Virus record (IMG/VR): IMGVR_UViG_3300044646_001426
Coordinates: 1 to 30,640 of that record
From: a virus
DNA: 30,640 bases
Strand: one strand, 5' to 3'
Shown: positions 216 to 6,407 of the stretch, one piece after another
Layout: the number at the start of each line of letters is the position of its first letter
Numbering within the stretch: position 1 is the first letter of the stretch
The notes under the pieces: model-generated
The model's input: the letters and a program-made list of their open reading frames with translations, nothing else
Database searches by the model: none
What the model was told of the DNA's origin: nothing
Translations under genes and position numbers: made by a program

Positions 216-875
216 TCCGTGGGAATCACGGAATTAAGCAACAGCCTCGGCATCGACAAGTCGGTCGTCTCCCGCCTCGTCAAGAAAGGCATGCCCACGA
301 CCTCCGTGGACGCCGCCCAGGCGTGGCGTGAGACGAACGCACCGCCGAGGGCCAAGCGCGGCCAGCGCGGCGAAGCGCCACCTCCGCCGAAACTCTCAAA
401 GGTCGCCGAACCTCCGAGAGTGTCAGAGCCTGCCGACCCTCTGCCAGTTCCTCCACCGCCGCCGGTTCACGACAGCGCACCCGAGCCGGACGACGAAGAC
501 AACACGCCGCGCCAATCCCTCCGCCGCGCCCGCCTTGCCGAGAAGGTCGGTTACAACGAACTCGTCATCTGCAAGCGCAACGGCGGCTCGGTCGAAGACA
601 TCCGCAAGGCAAACCAAATCTATATCGCCAGCCGGAACAACCGCATCAAAGCCGAGAAGGATTTCAAAGACTGGCAACGCCAGGAAGCCATCACCCTCTT
701 CTACGACGAAGCGCGCGACATCACGAGCCGCCCGCACATCACCGCCAAGCAGCTCCTCGAAGTCATGCCCAAGACCCTCGCCACCCGGCTGCACGGCCAG
801 CCGCAGAAAACCATCGAAGCCACCCTTGCCGAGTGGGCCGACAACCTCACGACCATCATCCGAAAAGCCATATGA
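213..875 (+). CDS. terS: Terminase small subunit, Nu1-like
   Basis: A protein of about 220 residues, predicted to recognise the packaging site and load the large subunit onto DNA at the start of genome packaging. The N-terminus (ITELSNSLGIDKSVVSRLV, about residues 4-22) has the form of the winged helix-turn-helix of Nu1-type small subunits. A Pro-rich linker follows (about 45-95), then a helical, charged C-terminal half expected to mediate oligomerisation and large-subunit contact. No ATG lies near the start; TTG at 213 or GTG at 219 are the only reasonable choices after the in-frame TAG at 195-197. Its stop overlaps the next start as ATGA. It is separated from the large subunit by four cargo genes, which is unusual. 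The call rests on the HTH and position rather than strong sequence recognition. Confidence 0.75.
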   Translation: MSVGITELSNSLGIDKSVVSRLVKKGMPTTSVDAAQAWRETNAPPRAKRGQRGEAPPPPKLSKVAEPPRVSEPADPLPVPPPPPVHDSAPEPDDEDNTPRQSLRRARLAEKVGYNELVICKRNGGSVEDIRKANQIYIASRNNRIKAEKDFKDWQRQEAITLFYDEARDITSRPHITAKQLLEVMPKTLATRLHGQPQKTIEATLAEWADNLTTIIRKAI

Positions 876-1381
876 CCATCGAACACCTCAAAACCTCCGA
901 CCTCATCCCCTACGCGCGCAACGCGAAAAAGCACGACGCCAGCCAAGTCGCCAAGCTCGCCGGGAGCATCCGCGAGTTCGGCTTTACCAACCCCGTCCTC
1001 ATCGACAAGGACAACGGCATCATCGCCGGTCACGGGCGCGTGCTCGCCGCTCAATCCCTCGCCCTCGAGGCCGTCCCCTGCATCCGCCTCGGCCACCTCA
1101 CCGACACGCAGCGCCGAGCCTACATCCTCGCCGACAACCGCCTCGCCGAGATCGGCGGCGGGTGGGATGAGGAAATGCTCAAGCTCGAGCTGGCGGATCT
1201 ATCACAAAATGCGGATCTCGATTTCGACCTGACCGGATTTTCAGATACCGACCTGCACAAGCTTTTGATCGAAACAAAAGAAGACGCACCTCCTGATGAC
1301 TTCAAAGAATTCGATGAGGGCATCGAGACGGATCACAAGTGCCCGCGCTGCGGATACGAATGGAGCGGCAAGACGAAATGA
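872..1381 (+). CDS. ParB/Srx-fold protein with C-terminal zinc ribbon
   Basis: 169 residues starting at the ATG that overlaps the terminase stop (ATGA). Residues about 5-95 match the ParB N-terminal/sulfiredoxin fold: an N-terminal strand with SDLIPYARNAKKH, a helix, a PVLIDKDNGIIAGHGR segment carrying the GHGR phosphate-binding motif at about 53-56, and a LADNRLAE helix. The C-terminus ends in a single CPRCGYEW knuckle, half of a zinc ribbon. In phages and mobile elements such domains are frequently fused to or placed beside DNA methyltransferases, and some are nucleases or nucleotide-dependent switches. Here the next gene is a cytosine methyltransferase, overlapped by ATGA at 1378-1381. Its role is unknown. 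I infer DNA binding, or control or targeting of the modification enzymes, rather than plasmid partition, because no ParA is present. Confidence 0.8.
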   Translation: MTIEHLKTSDLIPYARNAKKHDASQVAKLAGSIREFGFTNPVLIDKDNGIIAGHGRVLAAQSLALEAVPCIRLGHLTDTQRRAYILADNRLAEIGGGWDEEMLKLELADLSQNADLDFDLTGFSDTDLHKLLIETKEDAPPDDFKEFDEGIETDHKCPRCGYEWSGKTK

Positions 1382-2694
1382 ATGCAAAAATAATTTTGCG
1401 AGAATTTGGGGGGGGGGAGGTTGAGCGTTCAATCGATCTCCCAGCTCCAACCATAATGGCTGGAGGAATAGCTGCGGTAGGACACTCACAGTATTTCATA
1501 CAGCCTTCGAATTCAAAGCATGAGACAAAAACCGAAATGAATAAACCTCCTTACAAAGTCCCAAGCATGGAGGAAATCCGTGCGCTCCCCTGGAATGGAT
1601 TCACCGCAGCCTCCACATTCAGCGGGTGCGGCGGTTCCTCTACAGGCTACCGCATGGCAGGGTTCAAGTTGCTATGGGCTTCGGAGTTTATCGACGCAGC
1701 CCGTGATTCTTACAAAGCAAACGCCGCTCCACACACGATCGTCGACGGCAGGGACATCCGCGAAGTCCAACCCGAGGACATTCTAAAGGCTACCGGCCTT
1801 AAGCCCGGCGAGCTTGACCTGTTCGACGGTTCCCCGCCGTGCGCTTCATTTTCTACCGCAGGGAAACGCGAAGCCGGATGGGGCAAGGTAAAAAAATACA
1901 GCGACAAGGAGCAAAGGACAGACGACTTGTTTTTTGAATATTCTCGGCTCATCCGTGGCCTACAGCCTAAAACTTTTGTCGCTGAAAATGTCAGCGGCCT
2001 CATCAAAGGAACCGCAAAAGGCTACTTCCTCGAAATCCTCAAAGAACTCAAGTCCTGCGGCTATCGCGTGAGTTGCAAAGTCCTCGATGCGCAATGGCTC
2101 GGCGTCCCGCAAACAAGACAGCGGACTATTTTTATCGGCGTGCGTGAAGACCTCGGCATCGATCCAGTTCATCCCAAGCCGCTCGCGTATCGCTACAGCG
2201 TGCGGGATGCGCTGCCGTGGATAACTCGAGTTGTTCATGATACTTCAGGCCAGTTTGGGGTAGGAGAAATCACAGACCGGCCAAGCCCAGCGATTACCGT
2301 TGGCGTGAACTCAGTGAACAGCCTGCATTTTAAGGTTGATGGGCCAGAACCAGAAACCGACATAAGCCGCTACGCTATCGGCGCAGAGTGGGACAATTTA
2401 AAACCCGGCGAGCAGTCCGACAAATACTTCAATCTTGTTCGGACCGATCCAGACAAGCCAAGCCCAACCGTATGCGGGTCGCATGGTAATAGCTCAACGG
2501 CTGGGATTACGCACCCGCATGAAAAGCGAAAATTCACCATCGCCGAACTCAAACGCATCTGCGGATTCCCTGATGACTTTATTCTGAAAGGAACCTACGC
2601 GCAGCAATGGGAACGCTGCGGGCGTGCCGTCCCTCCCGTCATGATGTCGCACATCGCCGCAACAGTGCGCGACGAAATACTCAGGAAGCTCTAA
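1378..2694 (+). CDS. C5-cytosine DNA methyltransferase family enzyme with an altered motif X
   Basis: 438 residues from the ATG coupled to the ParB stop; an internal ATG at 1537 (residue 54) would give 385 residues and sits just before the first recognisable domain. Family motifs are clear: motif I FSGCGGSSTGYRMAGF at about 81, motif IV DGSPPC with the catalytic Cys at 155, motif VI ENV, motif VIII QTRQRTIFIGV, and motif X CGRAVPPVM near 414. The usual Gly-Asn of motif X is Gly-Arg (codon 2623-2625). The enzyme should attack cytosine C6 and transfer a group from a SAM-type donor to C5. Residues 1-53 contain a 10-G tract and a stretch (ERSIDLPAPTIMAGG) resembling the internal 'PAPT' strands seen later at about 300-370, as if a piece of a second methyltransferase were joined on. 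No restriction endonuclease lies nearby. Confidence 0.9.
   Translation: MNAKIILREFGGGEVERSIDLPAPTIMAGGIAAVGHSQYFIQPSNSKHETKTEMNKPPYKVPSMEEIRALPWNGFTAASTFSGCGGSSTGYRMAGFKLLWASEFIDAARDSYKANAAPHTIVDGRDIREVQPEDILKATGLKPGELDLFDGSPPCASFSTAGKREAGWGKVKKYSDKEQRTDDLFFEYSRLIRGLQPKTFVAENVSGLIKGTAKGYFLEILKELKSCGYRVSCKVLDAQWLGVPQTRQRTIFIGVREDLGIDPVHPKPLAYRYSVRDALPWITRVVHDTSGQFGVGEITDRPSPAITVGVNSVNSLHFKVDGPEPETDISRYAIGAEWDNLKPGEQSDKYFNLVRTDPDKPSPTVCGSHGNSSTAGITHPHEKRKFTIAELKRICGFPDDFILKGTYAQQWERCGRAVPPVMMSHIAATVRDEILRKL
1408..1417 (+). repeat. G10 homopolymer near the methyltransferase start
   Basis: Ten consecutive G residues lie 30 bases after the first ATG of the methyltransferase gene. In the current length the frame from 1378 stays open into the enzyme. 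Gain or loss of one G would break translation from 1378 but not from the internal ATG at 1537. Such tracts are typical slip sites. Confidence 0.85.
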
Positions 2695-2695
2695 T

Positions 2696-4063
2696 ATGTG
2701 CGGAATCGCTGGCGCGACAAATACAAGCCGGGAAAAAGTGCAGGGGATGCTGGACCGCATTCAGCACAGGGGGCCAGATGGGCAGGGCATCTTTGACCAC
2801 GCGGGAGTCATGCATGGGCATGTTCGCTTGGCGCTTGTCGATTTAACCTCTGCCTCGTCACAACCCTTTCGGCGTGACGGAGCCACACTGACTTTCAATG
2901 GAGAAATCTGGAACTTCCGCGACTTGCGGGCCGAGCTGGAAGCGCACGGCGAAAAGTTTGTGAGCACTGGAGACACGGAGGTTTTTTTAGCGATGCTGAA
3001 CCGGTTCGGCCTTTCTGCTCTTGAAAAAATCGACGGCATGTTTGCCTTCGCTTGGTCATCAAAAGCTGGAGAGCATTGGCTTGTCCGCGACAGCTTTGGG
3101 AAGGTGCCGCTTTATGTTGGCAAAACGCGAGGCGGCTATATGTGGGCGAGTGAGCGAAAGGCTTTCCCCTTCGGTATGCAACCCATCTCCGTGCCGCCTG
3201 GATATGCTTTTAATTTACTCACTGGAGAATGGCGCAAGTGGTATAAAATGCCGCAACCTACGCACTGCGGACAGGATCAGGTTTTAACATACCTGCGGGA
3301 AGGCGTAGGCAAACGGCTGGATGCTGATGCGCCTGTGTGTTGTTTGATCTCTGGCGGTCTCGATAGCAGCATCATTCTGGCCTTGGCAAAGGAGCGCCGT
3401 GCGGATGTCGTCGCATTCACTGCCGTTTACAATCCGGCATCTGACGACGCAAAGAGCGCGCGGCGGTTATGCTCGGATTTAGGCGTCCCGCTTTTCGAGG
3501 TGCCGGTTACACTCGATGAGTCAGGAATAACGCAAGCGATGCAGGCCATCGAAATCCCATCAAAGGCTCAAATCGAAATCGCCACCCTATGCCTGCCGCT
3601 TGCAAAGCGTGTTTATGCTGAAGGATTCCGCGCGTGTTTGTCGGGTGAAGCGGCAGATGAGATTTTCGGCGGGTATGGGAATTTCTGCATCCAAGCATCA
3701 AAGCAAAACGATGCGGGCGTCATTGAGTTAAGGAAGGCACTACTTAGCAAAATGGCACGAGGTAATTTCGTGCGATGCAACAAAGCATTCATGGCTCATG
3801 GCGTAGAATGCCGGCTCCCCTTCATGGAACAGCGCCTTGTCGAGTCAGCTATCCAACTTGGCAAAAGCGACTCAAGACCCGGCAAGGTTTTACTCAAAGA
3901 AGCCTGCAAAAACATTCTTCCGACATGGGTAATAAAACGAGTGAAAGACACCTTCCAAGGCGGCAGCGGAATCTCAGATGAGATTGCGAAACGCTACACA
4001 TCACCAATCAAATACTACAACGCCGAGATGCGTAAAATGTTCGGCTACCTTCCAGAAAACTAA
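2696..4063 (+). CDS. Glutamine-dependent asparagine-synthetase-like amidotransferase (AsnB family, compact)
   Basis: 455 residues, about 100 shorter than typical AsnB. The N-terminal class II glutaminase domain is intact: MCGIAG with the Cys2 nucleophile, RGPDG, a RLALVDLTS loop, NGEIWN, a GDTEV segment and RDSFGKVPLY. The C-terminal synthetase domain has the pyrophosphate loop SGGLDSS (about 220), SGEAADEIFGGY (about 315), CRLPFMEQRL and the KVLLKEACKNILP segment with its conserved Lys. It should therefore hydrolyse glutamine and channel ammonia to an AMP-activated carboxylate. In bacteria the acceptor is aspartate, but in a phage modification block the acceptor could be a carboxylated base. 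The ATG follows the methyltransferase stop by one base and the stop overlaps the next start (TAATG), so the genes are co-translated. Its codon use is less C-rich than the structural genes, suggesting separate acquisition. Confidence 0.9.
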   Translation: MCGIAGATNTSREKVQGMLDRIQHRGPDGQGIFDHAGVMHGHVRLALVDLTSASSQPFRRDGATLTFNGEIWNFRDLRAELEAHGEKFVSTGDTEVFLAMLNRFGLSALEKIDGMFAFAWSSKAGEHWLVRDSFGKVPLYVGKTRGGYMWASERKAFPFGMQPISVPPGYAFNLLTGEWRKWYKMPQPTHCGQDQVLTYLREGVGKRLDADAPVCCLISGGLDSSIILALAKERRADVVAFTAVYNPASDDAKSARRLCSDLGVPLFEVPVTLDESGITQAMQAIEIPSKAQIEIATLCLPLAKRVYAEGFRACLSGEAADEIFGGYGNFCIQASKQNDAGVIELRKALLSKMARGNFVRCNKAFMAHGVECRLPFMEQRLVESAIQLGKSDSRPGKVLLKEACKNILPTWVIKRVKDTFQGGSGISDEIAKRYTSPIKYYNAEMRKMFGYLPEN

Positions 4064-4707
4064 TGACAATCCCAACCGACTGGACTTTCAAAACCGCCGA
4101 TGTCGCAGGAGCTTTTGACCGGCATGTGCGCGAGCAACTTCCGTGGTATGACCTCACGACGGGAGTGGTCGCGCATGTGGCGCGGCACTACATACCGGAG
4201 GGCGGGCGCGTGTATGATATTGGAGCCAGCACAGGGAATGTCGGGAACGCTATCGCGGACACACTTACAGCCCGCAAGGCGGAACTAATTCCCATCGATA
4301 ATTCGGCGGCCATGTCGGAAATCTATTGCGGCCCCGGCAGCCTTGTCATCGCAGACGCTGCCGAGTTTGATTATCAACCCTTCGACCTTGCCGTTCTTTT
4401 CTTGTGCTTGATGTTTGTCCCACCATCGAAGCGCGGGGAATTTATCGCTCGGCTTCGTTCTCGCATCCGGCCAGGCGGGGCGATCATTGTTTTCGACAAG
4501 TGCGAACCGGCCACAGGCTATGTCGCCACGGTCCTCTGGCGGCTGGCACTCGCAGGCAAGACGGCGGCAGGAGTAGACGCCCGCGAGATATTGGCAAAAG
4601 AGCTATCCCTTGGAGGCATCCAGCGACCGATCAACCCGCGCGAAATAGAACCCGCCACCGAGATTTTCCGCTTTGGAGATTTCGCCGGATGGATTATCGA
4701 GCCATGA
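4063..4707 (+). CDS. CmoA-like class I SAM-dependent enzyme (candidate carboxy-SAM synthase)
   Basis: 214 residues with a Rossmann SAM fold. Motif I is VYDIGASTGNVG (about 50-61) and motif II is LIPIDNSAAM (about 75-84), both very close in pattern to CmoA, which has YDLGCSLGAAT and IIAIDNSPAM. The preceding REQLPWYD also resembles the SVPGY region of CmoA. The middle (LFLCLMFVPPSKRGEF, then IRPGGAIIVFDK) and the end (FRFGDFAGWI) follow CmoA order as well. CmoA converts SAM plus prephenate into carboxy-SAM. If that activity is conserved, this gene supplies an unusual donor to the adjacent cytosine methyltransferase. Alternatively it is an ordinary methyltransferase of the same fold. The start overlaps the upstream stop (TAATG) and its stop overlaps the terminase large subunit start (ATGA). 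Confidence 0.75.
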   Translation: MTIPTDWTFKTADVAGAFDRHVREQLPWYDLTTGVVAHVARHYIPEGGRVYDIGASTGNVGNAIADTLTARKAELIPIDNSAAMSEIYCGPGSLVIADAAEFDYQPFDLAVLFLCLMFVPPSKRGEFIARLRSRIRPGGAIIVFDKCEPATGYVATVLWRLALAGKTAAGVDAREILAKELSLGGIQRPINPREIEPATEIFRFGDFAGWIIEP

Positions 4708-6407
4708 CCCCCGCCGCCGAAGCCCTACGCGAACACCTGCGCTCGATCTACGCGCCGATTGACCGGCGCACCGTTACCGAGTGGTGCGCTGACGAGGTGA
4801 TATTGAGCGAGCGGCAGACGCAGATGCCCGGAGCATTTTCGACACGCCTCACGCCCTACCTCCGCGAGCCGCTCGAGTGCTTCGGCGATGTCGATGTTTC
4901 CGACCTCGTCCTCGTCTTCGGCACGCAGACCGGCAAGACCACGATGGTGCAAGCAGGCACCGCCTGGCGCATCGTGAACAAGCCGCAGCCCGTCGTGTGG
5001 GTCATGCCCACCGAAGGCCTCGCCCGATCATTCTCCGAGACGCGCTGGCTCCCGCTCTTCGACGACAGCGCCACGCTCGCCGCTCAGAAGCCAGCGGACC
5101 GGCACCGATTCAAAAACCTCGAGCAGCATTTTTCGCGGTGCTCGCTCGTCTTCGTCGGCAGCAACTCCCCGGCAAACCTCGCCAGCCGCCCCGCCGGACT
5201 CCTTCTTATGGACGAGGTGGACAAATTCGCCCGCGAGACCGACCAAGAAACCTCCGCGCTTTTCCTCGCGGAGAACCGCACCAAGTCCTTCGTCGGCGCG
5301 CTTCGCGTCAAGACCAGCACACCCACCACGCCGGACGGCGCGATATGGCAGGAGTTTTTGAAAGGCACGCAGGAAAAATTCATGCTCGAGTGCCCGCATT
5401 GCCACGAGCGCATCGAGCTTTTGTGGGAGCAGGTAAAGTGGGACACCGAGGCGAAAGTGGCCGGCAAGTGGAACATGGCGCGCGTCGAAGAGTCCACTCG
5501 CTACATTTGCCAGCGGTGCGGAGGCGAGTGGAACGACGGCCAGAAGATCGAAGCCCTGCAAGACGGCAAATGGCAGGCCACAAACCCCAGCGCCCAGCGC
5601 GGCTTTCGCAGCTTCCACCTTAATTCCCTCTACGCGCCGTGGCGCTCCTGCACATTCGGCGCGCTCGCGGTGAAATTCCTACGCGACAAGGACACGCTCA
5701 ACGGCCTCCAAGATTTCACCAACAGCACGATGGCCATGCCGTGGGAGCAGGTCGAGACCAGCATTGGAGACGCCAACATCCTCAGCCTCCGAGGCGACTA
5801 CACGCGCGGCACCTGCCCGATCGAGCCAGCGCACATCGTCACCTGCGCCGACATCGGCCAGGATAAACAGCACTGGACCACGGTCGCCTTCGACGCCAAC
5901 GGCCAGAGCTATGTCCTCGACTACGGCACCACGCTCACCATCGAAGACCTCCTCGCCGACTCGCCCCGCCGCATCTACCGCACGCCCAGCGGGCAGGAAG
6001 TCCGCCCCGAGTGCGGCCTCATGGATTCCGGCTTCGCCACCTTCCGCGTTTACACCGCTTGCCAAGTCAGCGCCGGATTCTGGCACGCCGCCAAAGGCTC
6101 CGGCGCAACCTTCGGCAGCCGCATCGGGCGCACCGTCATAGACGACTTCCCCGGCGTCGTGCTTTACACCTTCGTCGACCACGCCATCAAAACGGAACTC
6201 TTCATCGACCGCATCCGCAACGGCAAGCCCCCGCTCGCCATCCCGCGCGACACCACCGAGGACTTCCTACGCGGCATGAGCGGACAGCGCCTCGTCCCCC
6301 GCAAGACCGCCACCGGGCAAGAGTTCGTCTGGAAATCCGTGGCGCAAGATCACTACATGGACGCCGTGAAACTCTGCCATGTCGCCTGGCACATCTTGAA
6401 AAACTGA
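4704..6407 (+). CDS. terL: Terminase large subunit, GpA type
   Basis: 567 residues. The packaging motor ATPase plus nuclease that pumps DNA into the prohead and cuts concatemers. The ATPase domain shows Walker A FGTQTGKTT (about 72-80), LVFVGSNSPANLASRPAG ahead of Walker B LLLMDE (about 166-171), and the coupling region KTSTPTTPDG. Two CxxC pairs (ECPHCHE, and CQRCGGEW about 60 residues later) form the zinc-binding insert seen in lambda gpA relatives. The C-terminal half carries acidic residues expected for the RNase H-like nuclease (TCADIGQDKQHW, GLMDSGFAT and HYMDAVKLCH near the end). The ATG at 4704 overlaps the previous stop; an upstream extension in the same frame from 4404 has no merit because it overlaps the CmoA-like gene entirely. 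The length is slightly below lambda gpA (641), so the extreme termini may be reduced. Confidence 0.95.
   Translation: MTPAAEALREHLRSIYAPIDRRTVTEWCADEVILSERQTQMPGAFSTRLTPYLREPLECFGDVDVSDLVLVFGTQTGKTTMVQAGTAWRIVNKPQPVVWVMPTEGLARSFSETRWLPLFDDSATLAAQKPADRHRFKNLEQHFSRCSLVFVGSNSPANLASRPAGLLLMDEVDKFARETDQETSALFLAENRTKSFVGALRVKTSTPTTPDGAIWQEFLKGTQEKFMLECPHCHERIELLWEQVKWDTEAKVAGKWNMARVEESTRYICQRCGGEWNDGQKIEALQDGKWQATNPSAQRGFRSFHLNSLYAPWRSCTFGALAVKFLRDKDTLNGLQDFTNSTMAMPWEQVETSIGDANILSLRGDYTRGTCPIEPAHIVTCADIGQDKQHWTTVAFDANGQSYVLDYGTTLTIEDLLADSPRRIYRTPSGQEVRPECGLMDSGFATFRVYTACQVSAGFWHAAKGSGATFGSRIGRTVIDDFPGVVLYTFVDHAIKTELFIDRIRNGKPPLAIPRDTTEDFLRGMSGQRLVPRKTATGQEFVWKSVAQDHYMDAVKLCHVAWHILKN

Follow-up and report, generated by a model that had tools for sequence, protein, structure and literature searches.

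A phage CmoX homologue with a motif X arginine, encoded beside a CmoA-like protein and a glutaminase-type amide ligase

The stretch of DNA that was analyzed (the window, which is 30,640 bases long and is itself a virus record) encodes, judging from its sequence, a further member of the CmoX systems, accompanied by a ligase of the glutaminase type. In the reading that we prefer, to which we assign a probability of roughly 90% based on sequence and on analogy with a characterized homologue, a phage relative of the C5-cytosine DNA methyltransferases (CmoX) would transfer a carboxymethyl group from carboxy-SAM (Cx-SAM) onto cytosine in DNA, with Arg416 binding the carboxylate of the donor. A CmoA-like protein encoded two genes downstream would produce Cx-SAM from SAM and prephenate, and the product would be amidated by CmoY. 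The latter would activate the carboxylate with ATP and use ammonia from glutamine, giving 5-carbamoylmethylcytosine, a base that presumably shields the DNA of the phage from nucleases of the host. The donor switch to which Arg416 belongs may also include Ser175 and the small residue that follows the catalytic cysteine.

A first-pass annotation had suggested that a basic motif X residue together with a CmoA neighbor marks an enzyme that uses carboxy-SAM. This idea is right but already published, as the combination of CmoA, CmoX and an amide-forming partner was described in 2025 and the activity has been shown experimentally for the homologue SpCmoX (PDB 8YF3), the DNA cytosine C5-carboxymethyltransferase of Synechococcus phage S-B43 (Yang et al. 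2025, PMC12783734). In SpCmoX, the position of Asn304 in M.HhaI is taken by Arg350, which in the co-crystal touches the carboxymethyl group of Cx-SAM. The wild-type enzyme accepts Cx-SAM only and its R350N variant is inactive with both donors. The phage CmoA provides Cx-SAM, and the asparagine-synthetase-like CmoY ligates glycine. The same study counted 5615 CmoX, 4257 CmoA and 2251 ligase candidates as well as 1660 ParB neighbors. It also noted ligase clusters with distinct active sites, including one with a glutaminase domain that is predicted to use ammonia and was insoluble when expressed (PMC12783734). The reaction, the arginine contact and the supply by CmoA are thus demonstrated for SpCmoX; for the window enzyme we infer the same by analogy, and we likewise infer the formation of the amide and the part that positions 156 and 175 play.

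The motif X arginine and its gene cassette

The candidate DNA cytosine C5-carboxymethyltransferase (cmoX-like gene, 438 amino acids, 1378..2694; this and all following window features lie on the + strand) matches PF00145 (E = 1.6e-55), and both its sequence and its predicted model display the C5-methyltransferase fold with the SPPC motif IV. Its best sequence match in the PDB is 8YF3 (phmmer, E = 1.6e-70; next best 1.1e-24). The structure predicted with a 25-sequence alignment (mean pLDDT 75.7) is closest to the same entry (Z 38.4, rmsd 2.3, 313 residues; next best Z 31.9), while M.MpeI (4dkj) scores Z 25.9.

Translated in the frame of the ATG at 1378, positions 2611–2634 read E-R-C-G-R-A-V-P, and motif X as a whole reads E-R-C-G-R-A-V-P-P (2611..2637). 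The codon CGT at 2623..2625 encodes Arg416, in agreement with the first-pass reading of C-G-R-A-V-P-P, and this residue takes the place of the motif X Asn of M.HhaI, M.HaeIII and DNMT1. That annotation had also claimed the replacement of the Asn and had considered that the Arg might lie away from it; in the alignments, the Arg falls on it. By phmmer, GRAVPP is aligned to GNAVP of M.HaeIII, GNAVPP of DNMT1 and GRMVPP of SpCmoX, and by BLASTP (41% identity, E = 2e-82) Arg416 stands opposite Arg350 of SpCmoX, the Cx-SAM carboxylate contact, without gaps through motif X. An alignment slip was rejected because the pairwise alignments are gapless there. Sequencing errors, frameshifts and chance changes at the codon were rejected as well, since the Arg is conserved across relatives (157 distinct enzymes).

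The numbering depends on the start codon. Matches of many homologues begin around window residues 47–56, and with Met54 as the true start the motif X Arg would become Arg363. The N-terminal 53 residues (1378–1536) have low confidence in the predicted model. They include a P-x-P-T-I-x-A-x-G-I segment in common with an Asn-type relative (L060), for which reason the upstream start may be real.

From the ParB-N gene through the terminase gene, starts and stops overlap or nearly so. Upstream of cmoX lies the gene of a 169-amino acid ParB-N-domain protein with a C-terminal CPxCG zinc-ribbon-like tail (872..1381; ParB-like PHROG 620/498/15396, E to 2.5e-55; Pfam ParB_N score just under the cut-off), the stop of which overlaps the methyltransferase start (ATGA). 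A ParB-N neighbor adjoins 146 Arg-type and 32 Asn-type relatives. It thus appears to go with the methyltransferase and not with carboxy-SAM chemistry, and was rejected as a donor-specific part. Downstream follow the cmoY-like gene (2696..4063), the cmoA-like gene (4063..4707), the start of which overlaps the ligase stop, and a GpA-type terminase large subunit (4704..6407; PF05876, E = 6.3e-58; PHROG 15, E = 2e-114), succeeded by a portal, a ClpP-type head protease, a major head protein and a tape measure. With the terminase gene directly behind the cmoA-like gene, the cassette lies within the packaging region of the phage. Relatives in cellular genomes were found at six loci, all in Verrucomicrobiota metagenome-assembled genomes (MAGs), and the host of the window phage is therefore likely a member of this phylum.

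The ligase and the CmoA-like protein

The cmoY-like gene encodes a 455-residue protein that combines an N-terminal class II glutamine amidotransferase (glutaminase) domain, including Cys2, with a PP-loop synthetase domain, and it scores above the cut-off of the NCBI asparagine synthase model (TIGR01536, 287 versus 267 bits). Across 55 ligase sequences, Cys2, Arg44, Gly69, Glu70 and Asp93 are invariant, as are the PP-loop SGG.DS and Lys417, and Asn68 is present in 53. The T-T-x-R motif, which binds aspartate and ATP in asparagine synthetases (PMC5775275), is absent: at the position of this motif of asparagine synthetase B, the window ligase has A-Q-I-E, of which A, Q and E are invariant in the 55 sequences. 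There would be no free aspartate to hold, which fits a DNA-borne carboxylate as acceptor. As the ligase appears to hydrolyze glutamine and lacks the aspartate-binding motif, its predicted product is 5-carbamoylmethylcytosine. No natural detection of this primary-amide DNA base was found in the literature on these systems. A single-sequence predicted structure of the ligase was discarded (mean pLDDT 46.5).

CmoX and CmoA may act as proposed with CmoY adding an amine other than ammonia, or with its glutaminase domain being vestigial. The use of glycine by SpCmoY and the distinct active sites among the published ligase clusters speak for such a variant, yet the conservation of the glutaminase residues argues against it, and SpCmoY itself has no glutaminase domain and almost nil BLAST similarity to the window ligase. 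We consider this variant rather unlikely and retain amidation by ammonia. Among 154 Arg-type loci with CmoA, 40 carry a ligase of this type, 29 a single-domain ligase and 85 none on the DNA examined. Several relatives with a CmoA 96–99% identical to that of the window (L001, L004/L230, L006, L007 and L018) have no ligase between cmoX and cmoA, which indicates an exchangeable module.

The 214-amino acid product of the cmoA-like gene is a candidate Cx-SAM synthase, having E. coli CmoA (4gek, E = 1.2e-12) as its top match in a PDB search of solved structures and also matching PHROG 4752 (E = 2.5e-45). It is best called CmoA-like, because its score against the curated CmoA model TIGR00740 (E = 2.7e-14, 53.4 bits) is under the cut-off of 193.3. 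Its identity to SpCmoA is 19%, and its Glu180 aligns with Arg199 of E. coli CmoA, a carboxylate contact. The weak score and the loss of this Arg would suit an unrelated methyltransferase, with CmoX using Cx-SAM of the host or none at all. This is quite improbable, however, given that CmoA proteins are the top solved-structure matches, that the gene accompanies an Arg-type CmoX in every adequate contig, and that SpCmoA, proven active (PMC12783734), likewise has Glu at the Arg199 position. We thus keep to a diverged homologue of CmoA. A nine-member CmoA alignment was dropped as a query for scanning the collection, being too diverse.

CmoA also occurs in other surroundings. In L231 (658–3175), a CmoA 97% identical to that of the window is found with CmoX replaced by a 495-amino acid ParB-N and class I methyltransferase-like protein, plus a 130-amino acid HAD-like protein; this may represent a non-C5 carboxymethyltransferase or a leftover CmoA. 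In L250 (4411–5654), CmoA overlaps the end of a 197-amino acid protein with an HPPC motif that resembles a shortened C5-methyltransferase, and a full CmoX was not found within 5.8 kb. L254 (2682–4774) combines CmoA with a single-domain AsnB-like ligase, with a SET-domain-like open reading frame between them on the opposite strand; CmoX was not found within 7.8 kb.

Association of the arginine with CmoA and with two further positions

Relatives were gathered with the window protein, Asn-type relatives and a mixed alignment as queries, and some phage records and the matches from a single scan that used a staphylococcal methyltransferase were added. Among the 186 distinct enzymes, 139 have Arg and 39 have Asn at the motif X position. 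CmoA is encoded on the same contig for 136 of the 139 Arg-type enzymes, and the other three contigs end at most 1.3 kb downstream. An Arg equally frequent in enzymes without a CmoA neighbor, which the first-pass annotation had regarded as speaking against its idea, is hence not what was found. None of the 39 Asn-type enzymes has a CmoA, including 18 that are flanked by 3 kb or more on each side. In the count of all loci, which adds genome loci and a CmoA-first scan that is biased toward CmoA, Arg-type loci with adequate flanks number 153 with and 0 without CmoA, against 0 and 18 for the Asn type (Fisher p ~1e-24, a value that ignores shared ancestry). Arg and CmoA likewise occur together at the six loci from Verrucomicrobiota MAGs. 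When the trait columns are left out of the tree, the rows of known context require only two changes between Arg and Asn, and two independent pairs both point in the expected direction (sign test p = 0.5). As the Arg and Asn types form largely separate clades, few independent changes underlie the association.

A column-by-column comparison of 157 Arg-type with 35 Asn-type close relatives yielded three columns that separate the types without overlap, i.e., 416 (R versus N), 156 and 175. Position 156 directly follows the catalytic cysteine (motif IV S-P-P-C with the next residue, 1831..1845; Cys155 at 1840–1842, then Ala156) and is A, S, K or F in the Arg type versus Q or V in the Asn type. Position 175, in the catalytic loop that follows motif IV (the Ser of YSD, 1900..1902), is Ser in 156 of the Arg-type enzymes and in none of the 35 Asn-type ones (E, H, A or P). 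The next best columns fall mostly within the same loop (176–186). From the sequences, a small residue at 156 may leave room for the Cx-SAM carboxylate and Ser175 may bind it; no mention of the change after the cysteine was found in the main text of PMC12783734. A neutral Asn-to-Arg replacement in an ordinary 5-methylcytosine methyltransferase would agree with the observed fold and catalytic motifs, but is very improbable, since the Arg recurs in 157 relatives and fully follows the presence of CmoA, two more active-region positions change in step with it, and a homologue takes Cx-SAM only.

A narrower version of the carboxymethyltransferase reading holds both that the cassette makes 5-carbamoylmethylcytosine via the glutaminase-type CmoY and that use of Cx-SAM needs a three-position switch (Arg416, Ala/Ser156 and Ser175) and not the motif X Arg alone. 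This version is tentative, and we give it slightly less than an even chance. Counting against the carboxymethyltransferase reading as a whole are the weak likeness to CmoA, the few independent Arg/Asn changes, the absence of CmoY in about half of the Arg-type relatives and a motif X Gly in a CmoA-linked enzyme of staphylococcal phages.

The latter is seen in a Staphylococcus SPbeta-like phage (L085, KT429160, 4989–6688), where cmoA adjoins a HhaI-like C5-methyltransferase with Gly in motif X (GGV), a pairing that recurs in L145, L146 and L148. Arg is therefore not universal beside CmoA, and the published filter on R350 and SPPC would miss such enzymes. In these pairs, the carboxylate may be bound by a different residue, or the function may be another one. 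A further locus (L147, 2608–6011) comprises CmoA, a single-domain AsnB-like ligase and a HhaI-type methyltransferase with a motif X Arg and PCF rather than PCQ, and the Arg-type enzyme is followed by another methyltransferase, whose motif X has Gly. The Arg is apparently, and likely, of independent origin here; a search with this enzyme returned the same contig only.

Comparison with known systems

Sequence and synteny independently confirm the motif X Arg as a mark of carboxy-SAM-using DNA methyltransferases. The window adds a diverged homologue, encoded with a ParB neighbor and a ligase of the glutaminase type in what is probably a phage of Verrucomicrobiota, points to a predicted and unreported base (5-carbamoylmethylcytosine), and offers positions 156 and 175 as two further candidates for converting methyltransferases into carboxymethyltransferases. 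M.HhaI, M.HaeIII and DNMT1 have the fold and catalytic mechanism in common with the window enzyme, and differ by their motif X Asn and their SAM donor. The engineered M.MpeI N374K, cited in PMC12783734, can use Cx-SAM owing to a basic residue at this position of motif X; it is a CpG-specific enzyme into which Lys was introduced in the laboratory, whereas the natural enzymes carry Arg.

SpCmoX resembles the window enzyme in its C5-methyltransferase fold, SPPC motif IV, motif X Arg, Ser at the 175 position and small residue after the cysteine, and has adjacent CmoA and AsnB-like genes as well. The window enzyme differs by a longer N-terminus and a ParB gene upstream, and its ligase has two domains and is of the glutaminase type, unlike the single-domain glycine ligase SpCmoY. 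By description, this ligase is akin to the glutaminase-type CmoY cluster (A0A7T0Q3R0), in which an AsnB-like protein with a glutamine-hydrolyzing domain is encoded beside CmoX and CmoA and for which ammonia was proposed as donor (PMC12783734). Finally, the gene order of the window recurs in genes 122–125 of Streptomyces phage TurkishDelight, which encode ParB, an Arg-type CmoX (64% identical), a glutaminase-type ligase (35% identical) and CmoA (29% identical); the annotation given there is only methyltransferase or glutamine amidotransferase domain.
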